From an uncultured Oscillospiraceae bacterium (GTDB lineage Bacteria > Bacillota > Clostridia > Oscillospirales > Oscillospiraceae), in contig CANRHH010000004.1 of the NCBI GenBank assembly GCA_947630375.1, positions 24,698 through 88,697 on the forward strand: 64,000 bases of DNA. Direction: 5' to 3'. The position numbers were made by a program, and so were the translations under genes. Position 1 is the first letter of the stretch. Every line of letters begins with the position of its first letter. The notes beneath the pieces were generated by a model. The model was not told the origin of the DNA. It saw only the letters and a program-made list of their open reading frames with translations, and searched no databases. Positions 3,002 through 49,607 of the stretch are shown piece by piece.

Positions 3002-4843
3002 ATGCAGATAACAGCATCTTCGTATGAGTTCATCACAGATAAAATAAAAGCATTAAAAGATACATATCCAACTCTGCGCAGTAAAACAGACGAGTATGCT
3101 TTCTCTGCCCTTTGCGTTAAATCGAATTTTTACAAAAATCCTGCACTTATATTAAATGAAAACGATTTAAAAGATATCGTGGTTGATGGACAATATGATG
3201 GAGGCGTTGATATCCTTTTAAATGATCCAAATTCGGAAGGTGCAGATCTGGTCATTGGACAGGCTAAATTTTGGAGAACGATTGATTACGAAGCAGTCCT
3301 CAATGCTATGATTAAAATGGCTCTTTTTTATAAAGATATGATTAGAGGACAATTTGAGCAGGTTAATGCTACAGTACAGCGTAGATTTTTAACCCTGAAC
3401 TCAGAAAGAGGTGATGAATCGAAGATCCGATTTGTGTTTTATACAAGTGCTCCGCAGGCAGGTATCCGCCGGGATAGGATAGAAAAGAAATTTAGAGAAC
3501 AGTTTGTAGGTATTAGCAATATTGAAGTTTCAATACTATTTGCAACAGATATAGAAGACGAAATTAAAGAATCGGAATCCAGACGCCCTGCTGTTGAATC
3601 AGGGAAAATCCGTATCGATGAGAGAGATAATTATCTTCTTTACGGTGATGGCGCTGCTATTGTAAATGTCTCAGCATATTCGATAAAGCAACTGTATGCC
3701 CAGCATAATACAAATTTGCTGGCCCGTAATTTACGTTACCATATTGCAGGACGCGATATTGATAAAGCTATTGCAGAAACCATCCAAACGGATCCGGACT
3801 CTTTCTGGTTGAAAAATAACGGCCTAACACTAATCTGTGATGACTTTGACATCGATGGTAAAGAAGTCAAATTAAAAAATTTTTCTATTGTCAATGGTGG
3901 CCAAACCACATATATGATACACAAAAGCCCTATCATTAATAGTGAGCATGATTTTTTCCTTCCATGTAAAATTATTAAGATAGCAGGAGACACAGAAGAC
4001 GAAAAGAACTTGTTTAGTTTATCCATAGCAAAAGCGACCAATTCTCAAAAAGCTATTAAACCTGTTGATCTCAAAGCAAATTCGCCGGAACAAGTACGAT
4101 TTGCACAAGCAATGAGAGAGGTTGGAATTTTTTATCAAACAAAACGAGGAGAAACTGTTCCTGCGGCATTCAGACAGCCATATCTAAATACAGATCTTGT
4201 GGAGGTGGGAAAACTGTGTTTAGCGGCAATTTTTCAGATTCCCTGCACAAGTAGATCAAAACCGTCGTTACTCTATCAAGACAAGTATTACGCTCCTGTT
4301 TTTAATGGAAACCAAGCGCAAATTTCAAAACTTTGTAAGGAACTGTTATACATTGACTACTACTTCCGCACAGTCTATCAGAGAGACTTTGATCGAAAAA
4401 ACAGTTCATCACCCAATGCAGATATCAAAATATCGTTTGCTCATAATGCCCGTACACTTTGCATTGCTTTTGTAGCATTTGCAGCAAGGTATAGGCAAGG
4501 CAACATAACAGATAGAGATTTAACACCCTTATTTAATTCTTCTTCGTCTGAAAGCATACCTGATATTTTATATGAATCCTTTAGAGATATTGGGACCCTT
4601 CAATTTTTCCTACCGCCCCAGTTATTTGCCAACAAGGACCAGTACGACAGCGCGTTAAGTAGACTCTTCTCCATCATCATAAGGGAAGGTATTGCAAGTT
4701 ATACTCACGAATGCCGTCATGATTCGACCTTAACAGCTACAAATTATTTAAAGAAAGATAAGAATTATTATGACATTCTTAGTATACAGTGGGAAAGAAT
4801 AATAGATGATCTCAACTCTTTCTTCCCTCAAATTGGAATGTGA
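3002..4843 (+). CDS. AIPR (abortive infection phage resistance) family protein with nuclease-like N-terminus
   Basis: A 613-residue protein starting at ATG 3002, with GGAGGAG just upstream; the open frame begins at 2849 but lacks a ribosome site. Residues 238-310 carry AIPR hallmarks: NLLARNLRYHI, FWLKNNGLTLI (268-278) and IVNGGQTT (296-303). The N-terminal part has GGVD with Asp70, then QAK (Gln87, Lys89), which fits the D...QxK core of a PD-(D/E)XK nuclease fold. AIPR proteins are linked to phage abortive infection. It is AT-rich and shares an island with the Fic toxin-antitoxin pair beside guaA, so a defence role is likely. No methylase or partner subunit is adjacent. Confidence 0.85.
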   Translation: MQITASSYEFITDKIKALKDTYPTLRSKTDEYAFSALCVKSNFYKNPALILNENDLKDIVVDGQYDGGVDILLNDPNSEGADLVIGQAKFWRTIDYEAVLNAMIKMALFYKDMIRGQFEQVNATVQRRFLTLNSERGDESKIRFVFYTSAPQAGIRRDRIEKKFREQFVGISNIEVSILFATDIEDEIKESESRRPAVESGKIRIDERDNYLLYGDGAAIVNVSAYSIKQLYAQHNTNLLARNLRYHIAGRDIDKAIAETIQTDPDSFWLKNNGLTLICDDFDIDGKEVKLKNFSIVNGGQTTYMIHKSPIINSEHDFFLPCKIIKIAGDTEDEKNLFSLSIAKATNSQKAIKPVDLKANSPEQVRFAQAMREVGIFYQTKRGETVPAAFRQPYLNTDLVEVGKLCLAAIFQIPCTSRSKPSLLYQDKYYAPVFNGNQAQISKLCKELLYIDYYFRTVYQRDFDRKNSSSPNADIKISFAHNARTLCIAFVAFAARYRQGNITDRDLTPLFNSSSSESIPDILYESFRDIGTLQFFLPPQLFANKDQYDSALSRLFSIIIREGIASYTHECRHDSTLTATNYLKKDKNYYDILSIQWERIIDDLNSFFPQIGM

Positions 4844-21659: not shown

Positions 21660-22217
21660 GTGGAGACCCGGCACAGCGAAGAGAGCCTGGAAGCCTTGTC
21701 CCGGATGCAGTACGATCTGTTCTGCCAGAAGAACCGCCTGGCGCGAAGCATCATCAGTGTGGTGTGCGTATTACTGGGCGTTGTCTATTACACCAGCTGG
21801 TGGGCGCTGCTGCTGATCGCCTACGGCTGCTATCTGACCACCAGTACCTACAGCTCCGCCAACCGGACGGCTCACAAGCTGGCCGCCCAGATGCGGGCGG
21901 CCGGCGGGTTCCCCCGTTCCCGCTACGTGTTTGAGAAAAAGCAGATGCGGGTCTTCAGCCTGCCGGATGAGGAGGAGCTGACGCCCCTGGCCTATGAGGC
22001 CGTGGCCGGGCTGGGGGAGGACCGGGACGCCTTTTATCTGTTCCGGGACAGCTATGGGGGCTACCGGGTGCCCAAAAGCGCTTTGGGGGACCGGGAGGAG
22101 GCCTTTCGTGACATGATCGAGGCCCGGGCCGGGCGCCGCTTCGCCCGCCGCCGCACCCCGTTCAACCAGCTCCGGGACTGGATGAAGCGCAAAGAAAACG
22201 AACCTGAGCATCTATAG
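21660..22217 (+). CDS. YcxB-like membrane protein
   Basis: A 185-residue protein with one or two membrane segments (SIISVVCVLLGVVYYTSWWALLLIAYGCYL) followed by a cytosolic domain resembling the YcxB C-terminal fold (SRYVFEKKQMRVFS, then DAFYLFRDSYGGYRVPKSAL). Function unknown. The start is uncertain: GTG 21660 has no ribosome site, while AGGAGAGGAG (21627-21636) is ideally placed for the in-frame ACG at 21645. ACG may be a mutated ATG or a rare start. The gene is followed by a large hairpin-rich 3' region containing a repeat element. Confidence 0.7.
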   Translation: METRHSEESLEALSRMQYDLFCQKNRLARSIISVVCVLLGVVYYTSWWALLLIAYGCYLTTSTYSSANRTAHKLAAQMRAAGGFPRSRYVFEKKQMRVFSLPDEEELTPLAYEAVAGLGEDRDAFYLFRDSYGGYRVPKSALGDREEAFRDMIEARAGRRFARRRTPFNQLRDWMKRKENEPEHL

Positions 22218-22254
22218 GCATGTTAACAAAGGCCAAAGGACTTTGTTAACATGC
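22218..22254 (+). other. Perfect hairpin after the YcxB-like gene
   Basis: A 14-bp stem, GCATGTTAACAAAG / CTTTGTTAACATGC, with a 9-base loop and no T-run, immediately after the stop codon. It precedes the repeat element. Confidence 0.7.
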
Positions 22255-22255
22255 T

Positions 22256-22598
22256 TCAAATGCGACCCGCTTGTGCCCTTCGGGTACTTCGCTGGGCTCG
22301 CATTTGATACTCGCGCTTATCGCGCTTCGCTTGGTCGGCGCGGCGTCAGAACAAGGCTGTAAAGCCATTTAGCGGTCCAAGGCCCGCCAAATCGGCAGAC
22401 AGCCTTGTTCTTCCTTACCAAAACCAAAGCATGTGCTTTGGTTTTGAGAGGAGGCAGAGTGGAGCAAATGAGCTTTCCCGTTTACGGGGAAGCGAATGCG
22501 AGGAACTTCTGCCGACGACATGCGGCTCAGAGTGTTTTTGAGGCGGCAAAGCTGCCTCAAAAACGATTGAATCCTTTCTTCGCCGCTCTGCGGCGAAG
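22256..22598 (+). repeat. Three-module hairpin repeat element, long copy
   Basis: Modules in order: A (22256-22342), a 50-base hairpin closed by CAAATGCGA / TCGCATTTG plus a GC-rich second stem; B (22534-22564), stem GTTTTTGAGGC / GCCTCAAAAAC; C (22565-22598), stem CGCCGC / GCGGCG. All three recur in the same order, inverted, at 33976-34153. Module A is about 95 percent identical. The 190 bases between A and B are specific to this copy and hold three further hairpins (GAACAAGGCTGT...ACAGCCTTGTTC; CCAAAACCAAAGCA...TGCTTTGGTTTTG; GCTTTCCC...GGGGAAGC). No coding role is apparent, and weak antisense reading frames here are probably spurious. Confidence 0.85.
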
Positions 22599-22615
22599 GT
22601 AGCGCAGTCTCTGTA

Positions 22616-22656
22616 ATGTAAAAGCGTGCCGGAAATTTTCCGGCACGCTTTTACAT
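22616..22656. terminator. Bidirectional terminator of the YcxB-like unit and thiN
   Basis: A 17-bp stem, ATGTAAAAGCGTGCCGG and its complement, with a 7-base loop. The thiN stop codon lies inside it. Confidence 0.85.
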
Positions 22657-23268
22657 GCGGCACATGGCTACCAGCAGCAGCCCGGAGGAGAAGGACAGCT
22701 CCGCCTCCGGCCCGGCCCACTGGTTGCTGACGCCTAAGGGGAAACAGTTGTCCAGAACCGTGTCCTCCAGCGGGTACTGGACGCCCCGGATACACACCCC
22801 GGCGCACGTATCCGTCAGAGCGAAGAGGGACAGGCTCCAGCCTTCCCGGCGGGGCAGGGTCAGGCGGCAGGGGGGCAGCACCAGCAGGTCCGCGTCCCGG
22901 TCCCGGAGGCGGACCCGGACGCCCCGCCGGGCGGCCCAGGCGGCGGACTGGAGGTTGGCCAGGCTGTGGTCCAGCCGGTTTCCCAGGGCGCAGCAGAGCT
23001 CCACTTCCTCAAAGCCCAGGGCCAGGGCCCGGCGCAGGGCCAGCATGGTGTCCGTGTCATCCTTCCGGATGGGGTGGCGCTCCAGGGGCACGCCCTCCGG
23101 CAGAGGCGCGGTGCAGGAATCCAGGTCGCCCACGATCAGATCCGGCCGGAGGCCGCAGCGCTGGGCGTATTCAAAGCCCCTGTCGCAGGCGATGAGAAAG
23201 GTCCCCGGTTCGGGGGGCGCGATGGGGCTGAAGCGCCCGCCGGTGACGATGAGGCATTTTTTTGCCAT
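22651..23268 (-). CDS. thiN: Thiamine pyrophosphokinase
   Basis: A 205-residue enzyme that makes thiamine diphosphate from thiamine and ATP. Signature blocks are [27 protein letters not shown] and the catalytic [25 protein letters not shown] matches the conserved G.R.DH.L.N motif. The C-terminal beta-domain ([15 protein letters not shown]) binds thiamine. It starts at ATG 23268 with AAAGGAG upstream and has its own strong promoter. No thiamine riboswitch was seen in the leader. Confidence 0.95.
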
Positions 23269-23811: not shown

Positions 23812-23847
23812 CCACCCTGCTCATATGCTGTGAGCAGGGTGGTTTTG
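23812..23847 (+). terminator. Terminator of mazF
   Basis: Stem CCACCCTGCTCA / TGAGCAGGGTGG, then TTTTG. Confidence 0.8.
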
Positions 23848-33831: not shown

Positions 33832-33928
33832 AGCTTCTTTCCGCTCCTTGTTTTATTGAGGCGCCGGGAACGCCTCTCACCCTTTAATAACCCCCAAAGG
33901 CCCTGTTTTGTTTCAGATTTGGATAAAA

Positions 33929-33955
33929 AAACCTCCGGCTTTCGCCGGAGGGGTT
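33929..33955 (-). terminator. Terminator of the PepSY transcript
   Basis: Stem CCTCCGGC / GCCGGAGG with flanking A/T pairing; on the minus strand it ends in TTTTTTT. It lies beyond the repeat element, so the element belongs to the 3' region of the PepSY mRNA. Confidence 0.85.
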
Positions 33956-33975
33956 TTGAAGACACCTCGTCAAAT

Positions 33976-34153
33976 ATGCCGCCATGCGGCAAAAGAGAAT
34001 TAAATCTGTTTTTGAGGCAGCTTTGCCGTCTCAAAAACACCCTGAGGCGAGCCAAGCGAGCCCTCGCGCCGACCAAGCGAAGCGCGATAAGCGCGAGCCC
34101 CTCAAATGCGAGCCCAGCGAAGTACCCGAAGGGCACAAGCGGGTCGCATTTGA
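33976..34153 (-). repeat. Three-module hairpin repeat element, short copy
   Basis: Inverted copy of 22256-22598. Module A lies at 34065-34153, differing by only a few bases from the first copy; module B at 34008-34038; module C at about 33976-34006. Only 26 bases separate A and B here, against 190 in the other copy. On the minus strand A begins 5 bases after the stop codon of the PepSY gene. As in the other copy, it lies in sense orientation between stop codon and terminator. Confidence 0.85.
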
Positions 34154-34157
34154 CGCG

Positions 34158-34850
34158 TTAGCGGTTTGGCTCTGTGTGGTTGCGGAGGATCTCGCCGGTG
34201 AAGGCGTCCACGTCGTACTCATACTCGGTGGAGGCGGTCTCAAAATCCACCTCGTAGTAGGCGGAGCTGATCCGCCGCTCCAGCTCTATGCCGATGTCGT
34301 ACACGTCCGTCTCCGCCAGGCCCGCGTCCGCCAGGGCGGCGGCCAGGGCCTCCTCCCGGGTGATCATATCGGCCGTGGCCGTCTCCGGAGCGGGGGCCTC
34401 GGAGGGCGGCTGGGGCGCGTCCCCGCCGGGGGCCTGGACCGGCTGTTCCGCCGCGGGGGCCTCTGCCGGCGCTTCGGCCGGGGCGCCGGCAGGCACCGGG
34501 GCGTTCTGGCCGGGGGCAAAAGCCTGGAAACCGCCGCCCAGGGCCCGGCCCTCGCCGGAGAAAGCCAGCACCTGGCCGGTGACCGCGTCGATAAAGCAGT
34601 CGTAATCCGCGCCCAGATACTCAAAATCCACCTCGTACCGGGGACTGCCGTTCTTGCGGCGCTCCAGCTCGATGTCGATATCGTTCACGTCGCTCTTGGA
34701 CAGGCCCGCCTGCTCCAGAGCGATGGCCAGGGCCTCTTCCCGGCCGATGGTGCTGCCGCTGCCGCGGCCCAGCAGGAAGCCCAGCAGCACCCCGCCGGCC
34801 ACCACGACCACCGCCAGCACGGCCAACAGGATCTTGACAGATTTTTTCAT
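34158..34850 (-). CDS. Membrane-anchored protein with two PepSY domains
   Basis: A 230-residue protein with an N-terminal membrane anchor (SVKILLAVLAVVVVAGGVLLG). Two PepSY-type repeats follow, about residues 33-95 (IGREEALAIALEQAGL ... YDCFIDAVTGQVL) and 165-228 (ITREEALAAALADAGL ... YEYDVDAFTGEIL), separated by a Pro/Ala/Glu-rich linker. PepSY domains often inhibit proteases or act as extracellular sensors. It is divergent from the two-component system genes at 34980-36981, so it may act as a signal partner. Starts at ATG 34850 after AAAGGAGG. Confidence 0.88.
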   Translation of the reverse strand: MKKSVKILLAVLAVVVVAGGVLLGFLLGRGSGSTIGREEALAIALEQAGLSKSDVNDIDIELERRKNGSPRYEVDFEYLGADYDCFIDAVTGQVLAFSGEGRALGGGFQAFAPGQNAPVPAGAPAEAPAEAPAAEQPVQAPGGDAPQPPSEAPAPETATADMITREEALAAALADAGLAETDVYDIGIELERRISSAYYEVDFETASTEYEYDVDAFTGEILRNHTEPNR

Positions 34851-49533: not shown

Positions 49534-49607
49534 AGCGGGATTGTGTAAAGGTAGCACAGCGGACTCTGACTCCGTATGTGAGGGTTCGAATCCTTCTCCC
49601 GCTGCCA
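49534..49607 (+). tRNA. tRNA-Gln (anticodon CUG)
   Basis: Acceptor stem AGCGGGA pairs with TCCCGCT; the 3' end GCCA is encoded. The anticodon loop CTCTGAC gives anticodon CTG (reads CAG, Gln), in the stem GCGGA / TCCGT. The T arm is GAGGG TTCGAAT CCTTC, with the G-U pair tolerated. The D arm is short, as usual for tRNA-Gln. Its 3' end is a probable integration site: a tyrosine integrase gene pointing at it lies 320 bases downstream. Confidence 0.95.

Follow-up and report, generated by a model that had tools for sequence, protein, structure and literature searches.

A hairpin-chain element at the 3′ ends of Oscillospiraceae genes as a probable IS1182-type MITE with a preference for terminator stem-loops

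Two copies of one hairpin element in the window

The window, a 64,000-nt stretch of a contig from an uncultured Oscillospiraceae bacterium, contains two copies of the same noncoding chain of hairpins, and this raises the question whether they are insertions of a mobile repeat aimed at gene 3′ ends or members of a family of structured 3′-UTR RNAs. The first copy (w1, 22218–22597, plus strand) directly follows the stop codon (22215–22217) of a YcxB-like gene, which scored 20.5 bits with the Pfam YcxB model, under the 23.3 cut-off. The second copy (w2, 34154–33978, minus strand) starts 3 nt after the stop codon of a PepSY gene. The first-pass annotation had described three modules, A, B and C, that recur in equal order on opposite strands. 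This was borne out by three alignments between the strands, 22253–22307 with 34102–34156 (98% identity over 55 nt), 22310–22342 with 34065–34097 (100% over 33 nt) and 22523–22564 with 34008–34049 (93% over 42 nt), together with the palindromic module C, the second copy of which is a diverged palindrome as judged by eye. Module A does recur, but as two separate hairpins rather than as a single module; we refer to them as hairpin A and hairpin 2.

The w1 copy opens with a left-end hairpin (GCATGTTAACAAAG ... CTTTGTTAACATGC, 22218–22254), the 14-bp stem of which ends at hairpin A and which is the counterpart of the left end in other copies. It is followed on the same strand by hairpin A (22256–22307), delimited by alignment with w2, folding and comparison with other copies in the genome, and by hairpin 2 (22310–22342) and hairpin B (22534–22564), both delimited by alignment with w2 and by the other copies. 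Between the latter two lies an additional multi-hairpin segment of about 180 nt (approximately 22343–22521; folding and other copies). Hairpin C (22579–22597) was placed from the other copies, and the end search found no recognisable right end after it. Folding then indicated a bidirectional terminator-like hairpin (approximately 22618–22656) between w1 and a convergent thiamin pyrophosphokinase gene. In w2, a left-end hairpin is absent. Alignment and folding place hairpin A at 34103–34154, hairpin 2 at 34065–34097 and hairpin B at 34008–34038, all on the minus strand, and folding adds a diverged hairpin C (33978–33995) and a terminator (approximately 33925–33957) on that strand. Both copies thus read in the direction of the preceding gene and are enclosed by its stop codon and a terminator, as had been noted. 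The difference in the spacer between A and B is likewise genuine, with about 180 nt more in w1, and the additional segment is common to 6 of the 22 full copies in the genome. When folding was compared with dinucleotide shuffles, 22215–22660 gave z = −15.6 and 33920–34160 (minus strand) z = −5.4, each stretch including the terminator. A hairpin at 22455–22513 in the additional segment of w1, with flanks like GAATGAGCTTTC ... GGAAGCGAATG, has similar ones in other intergenic repeats, near position 4000 in two other loci (L074 and L076).

A genus-wide family with IS1182-type ends

In the genome that carries the window (64 contigs, 2.33 Mb), searches with module A and with the whole element revealed 27 places, comprising 22 full copies and five A-only fragments. 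The element is therefore not restricted to the two copies in the window, and in the genus it was matched in 53 of 102 genomes at E ≤ 0.001. Two sister genomes, G099 and G100, gave at least 31 and at least 46 matches, respectively; these are lower bounds from the best 40 candidates scored, and one copy may give several matches. The genus-wide copy numbers are lower bounds as well, with the best eight candidates scored per genome. Among 80 loci of Clostridia type (retained from 547) surrounding named relatives of a phosphorylase encoded near w1, five showed partial matches to the canonical element (74–81% identity). Over the element, Rfam gave no match at gathering score and sub-threshold matches only. 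Elsewhere, Rfam matched a pemK RNA (L076, 2306–2402) and a purine riboswitch (L075, 3076–3177).

The copies share the order left-end hairpin (present in some), hairpins A, 2, 3, B and C, then TTTGTCTACARTCTGA, and a canonical copy measures about 170–220 nt. Across the genome, hairpins A and 2 have variable tips, and hairpin 3 is small and variable. In three loci (L062, L055 and L052) the tips of hairpins A and 2 appeared swapped among alternative small hairpins, as if these were units. The element holds no transposase gene, and gene calls from a simple codon-usage caller overlapped none of the 27 places.

The ends of the element pointed to its probable mobilising partner. The element's right end, TTTGTCTACAGTCTGA, when reverse-complemented, agrees at 16/16 positions with the left end, TCAGACTGTAGACAAA, of an IS1182-family insertion sequence in the same genome (L113/L121). 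The other IS1182 end in this genome, TTTGTCGACAATTTGA, corresponds in its first 10 bases to the reversed left end of the element, so that the terminal inverted repeats are common to both, with 16/16 positions at the right and 10 leading bases at the left. With up to two mismatches, the genome contains TTTGTCTACARTCTGA 26 times (14 in forward and 12 in reverse orientation), compared with one for the reversed control. Thirteen of these were read: three are the IS end (L107, L109, L113), three the other IS end, reading TTTGTCGACAATTTGA (L110, L111, L112), and three the end of a second MITE-like repeat (L108, L114, L115). A stem-loop directly follows the IS end in L107, L109, L113, L110, L111 and L112. 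One place inside a gene (L119) is probably a chance match. The nine further places are copies of the element, and four (two on contig C4 and two on C26) were left out. We had considered TTTGTCTACARTCTGA as an independent 3′-UTR motif and rejected this, given that most of the places read are element copies or ends of IS or MITE-like repeats.

The transposase reading frame of the IS in L113/L121 matched DUF772 and half of the NCBIfam IS1182 model NF033551. The score with this model, 217 bits, falls under the cut-off of 270 because the frame runs into a contig end. Two pieces at contig ends cover model positions 6–248 and 247–487 and were kept separate; since the IS1182 copies of this genome are cut by contig ends, no complete partner was seen there. 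In the genus, the model was matched in 47 of 102 genomes, 17 of them over its cut-off, and 4 of 30 loci contained complete IS1182 elements with paired ends (up to four substitutions each) 1.57–1.64 kb apart. By eye, a stem-loop touches each end of these four elements; the stem-loops at the two ends of an intact copy differ in sequence and show no duplication. Across the 102 draft genomes, element and IS1182 did not co-occur significantly (28 with both, 25 with the element only, 19 with the IS only, 30 with neither; p = 0.17).

Terminator stem-loops as targets and the two states of the copies

To characterise the insertion sites, we collected copies from three genomes by pattern. Of 82 matches, three were removed by hand as spurious (k = 4, 15 and 23) and one as a duplicate (k = 44), leaving 78 copies (21 from the genome of the window, 22 from G099 and 35 from G100). 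The pattern missed one full copy (C1b) and the five A-only fragments, and the counts for the first genome therefore use 21. The two flanks of each copy were aligned with each other, and flanks of different copies served as control (6162 pairs from 79 rows, k = 44 included), with 99.9% of the control at score 26 and a maximum of 29. Ten of the 78 copies exceeded this maximum, all of them among the 35 with a left end (the left end was set by eye in two of the ten, k = 51 and 71). In all ten, the duplicated unit was a terminator stem-loop of 23–35 nt. Its right-hand copy began exactly at the right end of the element in 10/10 cases; in eight, no more than about 5 nt separated the end of its left-hand copy from the detected left end. 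The remaining 68 copies, including 25 of the 35 with a left end, showed no duplication over the control maximum; a partial duplication of 14 nt was seen in k = 12. A hairpin above the 99th percentile of mononucleotide shuffles started within 3 nt of the right end in 30 of 48 copies in which that end was recognisable, and at the same level on the left side in 9 of 26, leaving 18 right and 17 left ends without one. Some insertions lie at no hairpin at all, and two of these (k = 33 and 35) seem by eye to have repeats of 7–8 nt.

Empty sites were found as well. A single terminator stem-loop in the window (23813–23842, plus strand) is the empty site for a copy in G099 (L078), where the element is flanked by two copies of that very stem-loop (score 53). 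Another G099 copy (L082) sits behind a tRNA gene, the counterpart of which in the window (49534–49604) has no element. Copy C6c of the window genome is missing from G099 (compared with L092), and conversely the G099 copy in L092 and a G100 copy in L079 are missing from the window genome (compared with L057 and L052, respectively). The site of w2 is empty in both G099 and G100, where the PepSY stop codon is followed by a short gap and a terminator-like hairpin; by DNA match, the PepSY gene occurs in 3 of 102 genomes, including the one studied here. For w1, thiamin pyrophosphokinase genes were matched in 38 other genomes, and the five sister loci compared had no element within about 1.5 kb. The 80 loci of named relatives provided no empty site because the YcxB-like, thiamin pyrophosphokinase and PepSY genes were not found there; of thiamin pyrophosphokinase, only two fragments at locus ends were present. 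Several loci were occupied in two of the three genomes, mostly in opposite orientations, with k = 7 and 65 as a candidate pair on the same side. The filled site in L092 (about 1480–1720), between genes that we take to be rpsB and tsf, lacks a stem-loop present at L057 (2845–3040), and a loss of this stem-loop is possible.

Taken together, the sequences make it probable (we would say about 85%) that the element is a non-autonomous MITE of IS1182 type with a body of chained hairpins, ends matching an IS of the same genome and a preference for terminator stem-loops. Of the proposals in the first-pass annotation, a nonautonomous mobile repeat that targets 3′ ends is thus supported by the IS1182-type ends, the terminator duplications and the empty sites. 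The MITE inserts beside stem-loops resembling rho-independent terminators, sometimes duplicating the stop signal, and would be moved in trans by the IS1182 transposase.

The copies with and without a left end differed in their relation to the upstream gene. Among the 35 copies with a left end, to which k = 51, 63 and 71 were assigned by hand and k = 70 was counted although its detected hairpin looks like a terminator, 18 were sense and 16 antisense. Among the 43 without a left end, 31 were sense and 10 antisense (p = 0.0015 against 1:1), while the difference between the classes was borderline (p = 0.053). Upstream genes were taken from the codon-usage caller, and three copies without a called one were left out of these counts. 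Over all copies, 49 are sense to the upstream gene and 26 antisense (p = 0.011). This excess comes from the copies lacking a left end; those with one are randomly oriented. Of the sense copies, 28/31 without a left end started between −3 and 11 nt from the stop codon, compared with 8/18 with one. Almost without exception, the copies without a left end begin at the foot of hairpin A. Their right ends were worse in all three genomes and their mean identities slightly lower (0.936 versus 0.946, 0.963 versus 0.975 and 0.920 versus 0.927; small differences). These copies resemble elements that have become part of a 3′ UTR. We infer that, after insertion, many copies lose their left end along with the terminator upstream of it, arriving at an arrangement of stop codon, hairpin chain and terminator as in w2; w1 would be similar, with the left-end hairpin kept and the right end lost. 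Loss of the upstream terminator together with the left-end hairpin would also remove the direct repeat needed for clean excision. Stop-fused copies may last because clean excision is thereby prevented, or because sense 3′-UTR hairpins are harmless or useful.

Rival readings and relation to known systems

The stop-fused state could instead have been made at insertion, the element replacing a stem-loop so that the foot of hairpin A became its left edge, rather than by later deletion. The nearly constant left edge fits this view, as do the IS1272 insertions that remove hairpin sequence according to the parts of PMC5678879 and PMC4923244 considered here. We nevertheless regard it as fairly unlikely, since in many stop-fused copies a terminator is still present 3′ of the right end, and the slightly greater divergence and worse right ends of these copies are as expected if they are older. 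A broader alternative holds that the element is a selected family of structured 3′-UTR RNAs or released small RNAs, in which the chain of hairpins serves to protect the 3′ ends of mRNAs or to bind a partner and mobility is a means of spread only. The sense excess of the copies without a left end and their position next to stop codons speak for it, and so does the structure. In 52 of the 78 copies (A-to-B distance 120–145 nt; w1 and w2 are outside this set), a three-helix structure had 99.5% of cells paired, compared with 97.6% in shuffles, and 47 cells changed on both sides; shuffles gave 13.7 ± 2.8 such cells, and slid versions gave 0 or 1. The sense strand folded more stably than the antisense strand in 52/52 copies, by 8.8 kcal/mol on average; the copies share recent ancestry, however, so that this difference can be inherited. 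Compensatory changes in the stems, the lack of which had been named as a refuting sign, exist, yet at only 4 of 45 pairs, and further pair types did not exceed the shuffles (8 versus 8.9), related copies not being independent. The random orientation of the copies with a left end, the missing Rfam match and the observation that occupied sites are seldom common to the three sister genomes also weigh against an RNA family, which we judge unlikely.

The structure statistics fit selection on RNA, selection on DNA hairpins or hairpin-templated repair alike. An RNA function of the stop-fused copies is possible from their sequences, and we put forward only tentatively, as less than an even chance, that the terminator-duplicating IS1182-type MITE supplies 3′ UTRs whose sense hairpin chain is kept for RNA action. 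If so, once the upstream terminator and left end are lost, the covarying hairpin chain would become a fixed sense 3′ UTR and could serve in 3′-end protection, as a binding platform or as a released small RNA. The element is palindromic, intergenic and repeated, as would be a REP-like one mobilised by a Y1 (RAYT-type) transposase. However, the ends of the element match IS1182 instead, long stem-loop duplications do not fit the Y1/RAYT route, and no Y1_Tnp (PF01797) match at E ≤ 0.001 was present in the 95.9% complete genome, whereas the same search was positive in 5 of 14 control genomes. We rejected such mobilisation as highly improbable.

The closest likeness to the MITE is found in IS1272 and TnSha1, IS1182-family elements of staphylococci. 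In the parts of PMC5678879 and PMC4923244 considered, both are described as targeting stem-loops, proven terminators included, as striking one terminator repeatedly in both orientations, and as deleting the target sequence without duplication. They thus share with our case the transposase family of the presumed partner and the stem-loop targets. In contrast to these gene-carrying elements that delete their target, the MITE is geneless and the whole stem-loop was duplicated in 10/78 copies; a replacement of the stem-loop without duplication, as in IS1272, was not what we found for it. Duplication of the whole stem-loop, drawn as a possible pathway in the legend of Fig. 13 of PMC5678879 and known from the consulted part of that paper only in this form, is now shown as an outcome.

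The element also resembles bacterial MITEs as characterised in the consulted part of the review PMC10969869, being short, non-autonomous, intergenic and strongly structured with IS-related terminal inverted repeats. It is set apart by a body of distinct hairpins whose tips are interchangeable, and by the terminator as preferred target. The same part of this review describes BOX, RUP and SPRITE of Streptococcus pneumoniae as small structured intergenic repeats, SPRITE being terminator-like, and does not contain the word IS1182. These pneumococcal repeats are likewise small, structured and intergenic, but presumably differ from the element in sequences and ends. BOX repeats of Streptococcus pneumoniae are modular. 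We know of no terminator duplication on insertion for BOX, RUP or SPRITE. The top matches in the open-access literature included no report of such an IS1182-type MITE in these bacteria.

Stem-loop targeting by IS1272, a member of the IS1182 family, is already published; apparently new are the duplication of the whole terminator, the body of chained hairpins and the copies fused to stop codons. The findings extend stem-loop-directed transposition from staphylococcal IS1272 to Oscillospiraceae presumably of the gut, a placement taken from named relatives, and the element may add structured RNA to message ends in this group of bacteria. They also provide naturally occurring stages between a fresh insertion and a 3′ UTR fused to the stop codon, which makes it testable how a transposon can build 3′ UTRs and alter termination without gene breakage. 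The second MITE-like repeat, which has a similar right end, lies outside the window at about eight places in the same genome (20 matches at E ≤ 0.01), among them L108, L114 and L115 (about 450–665); in L115 and L114, a terminator was seen by eye on either side of it.
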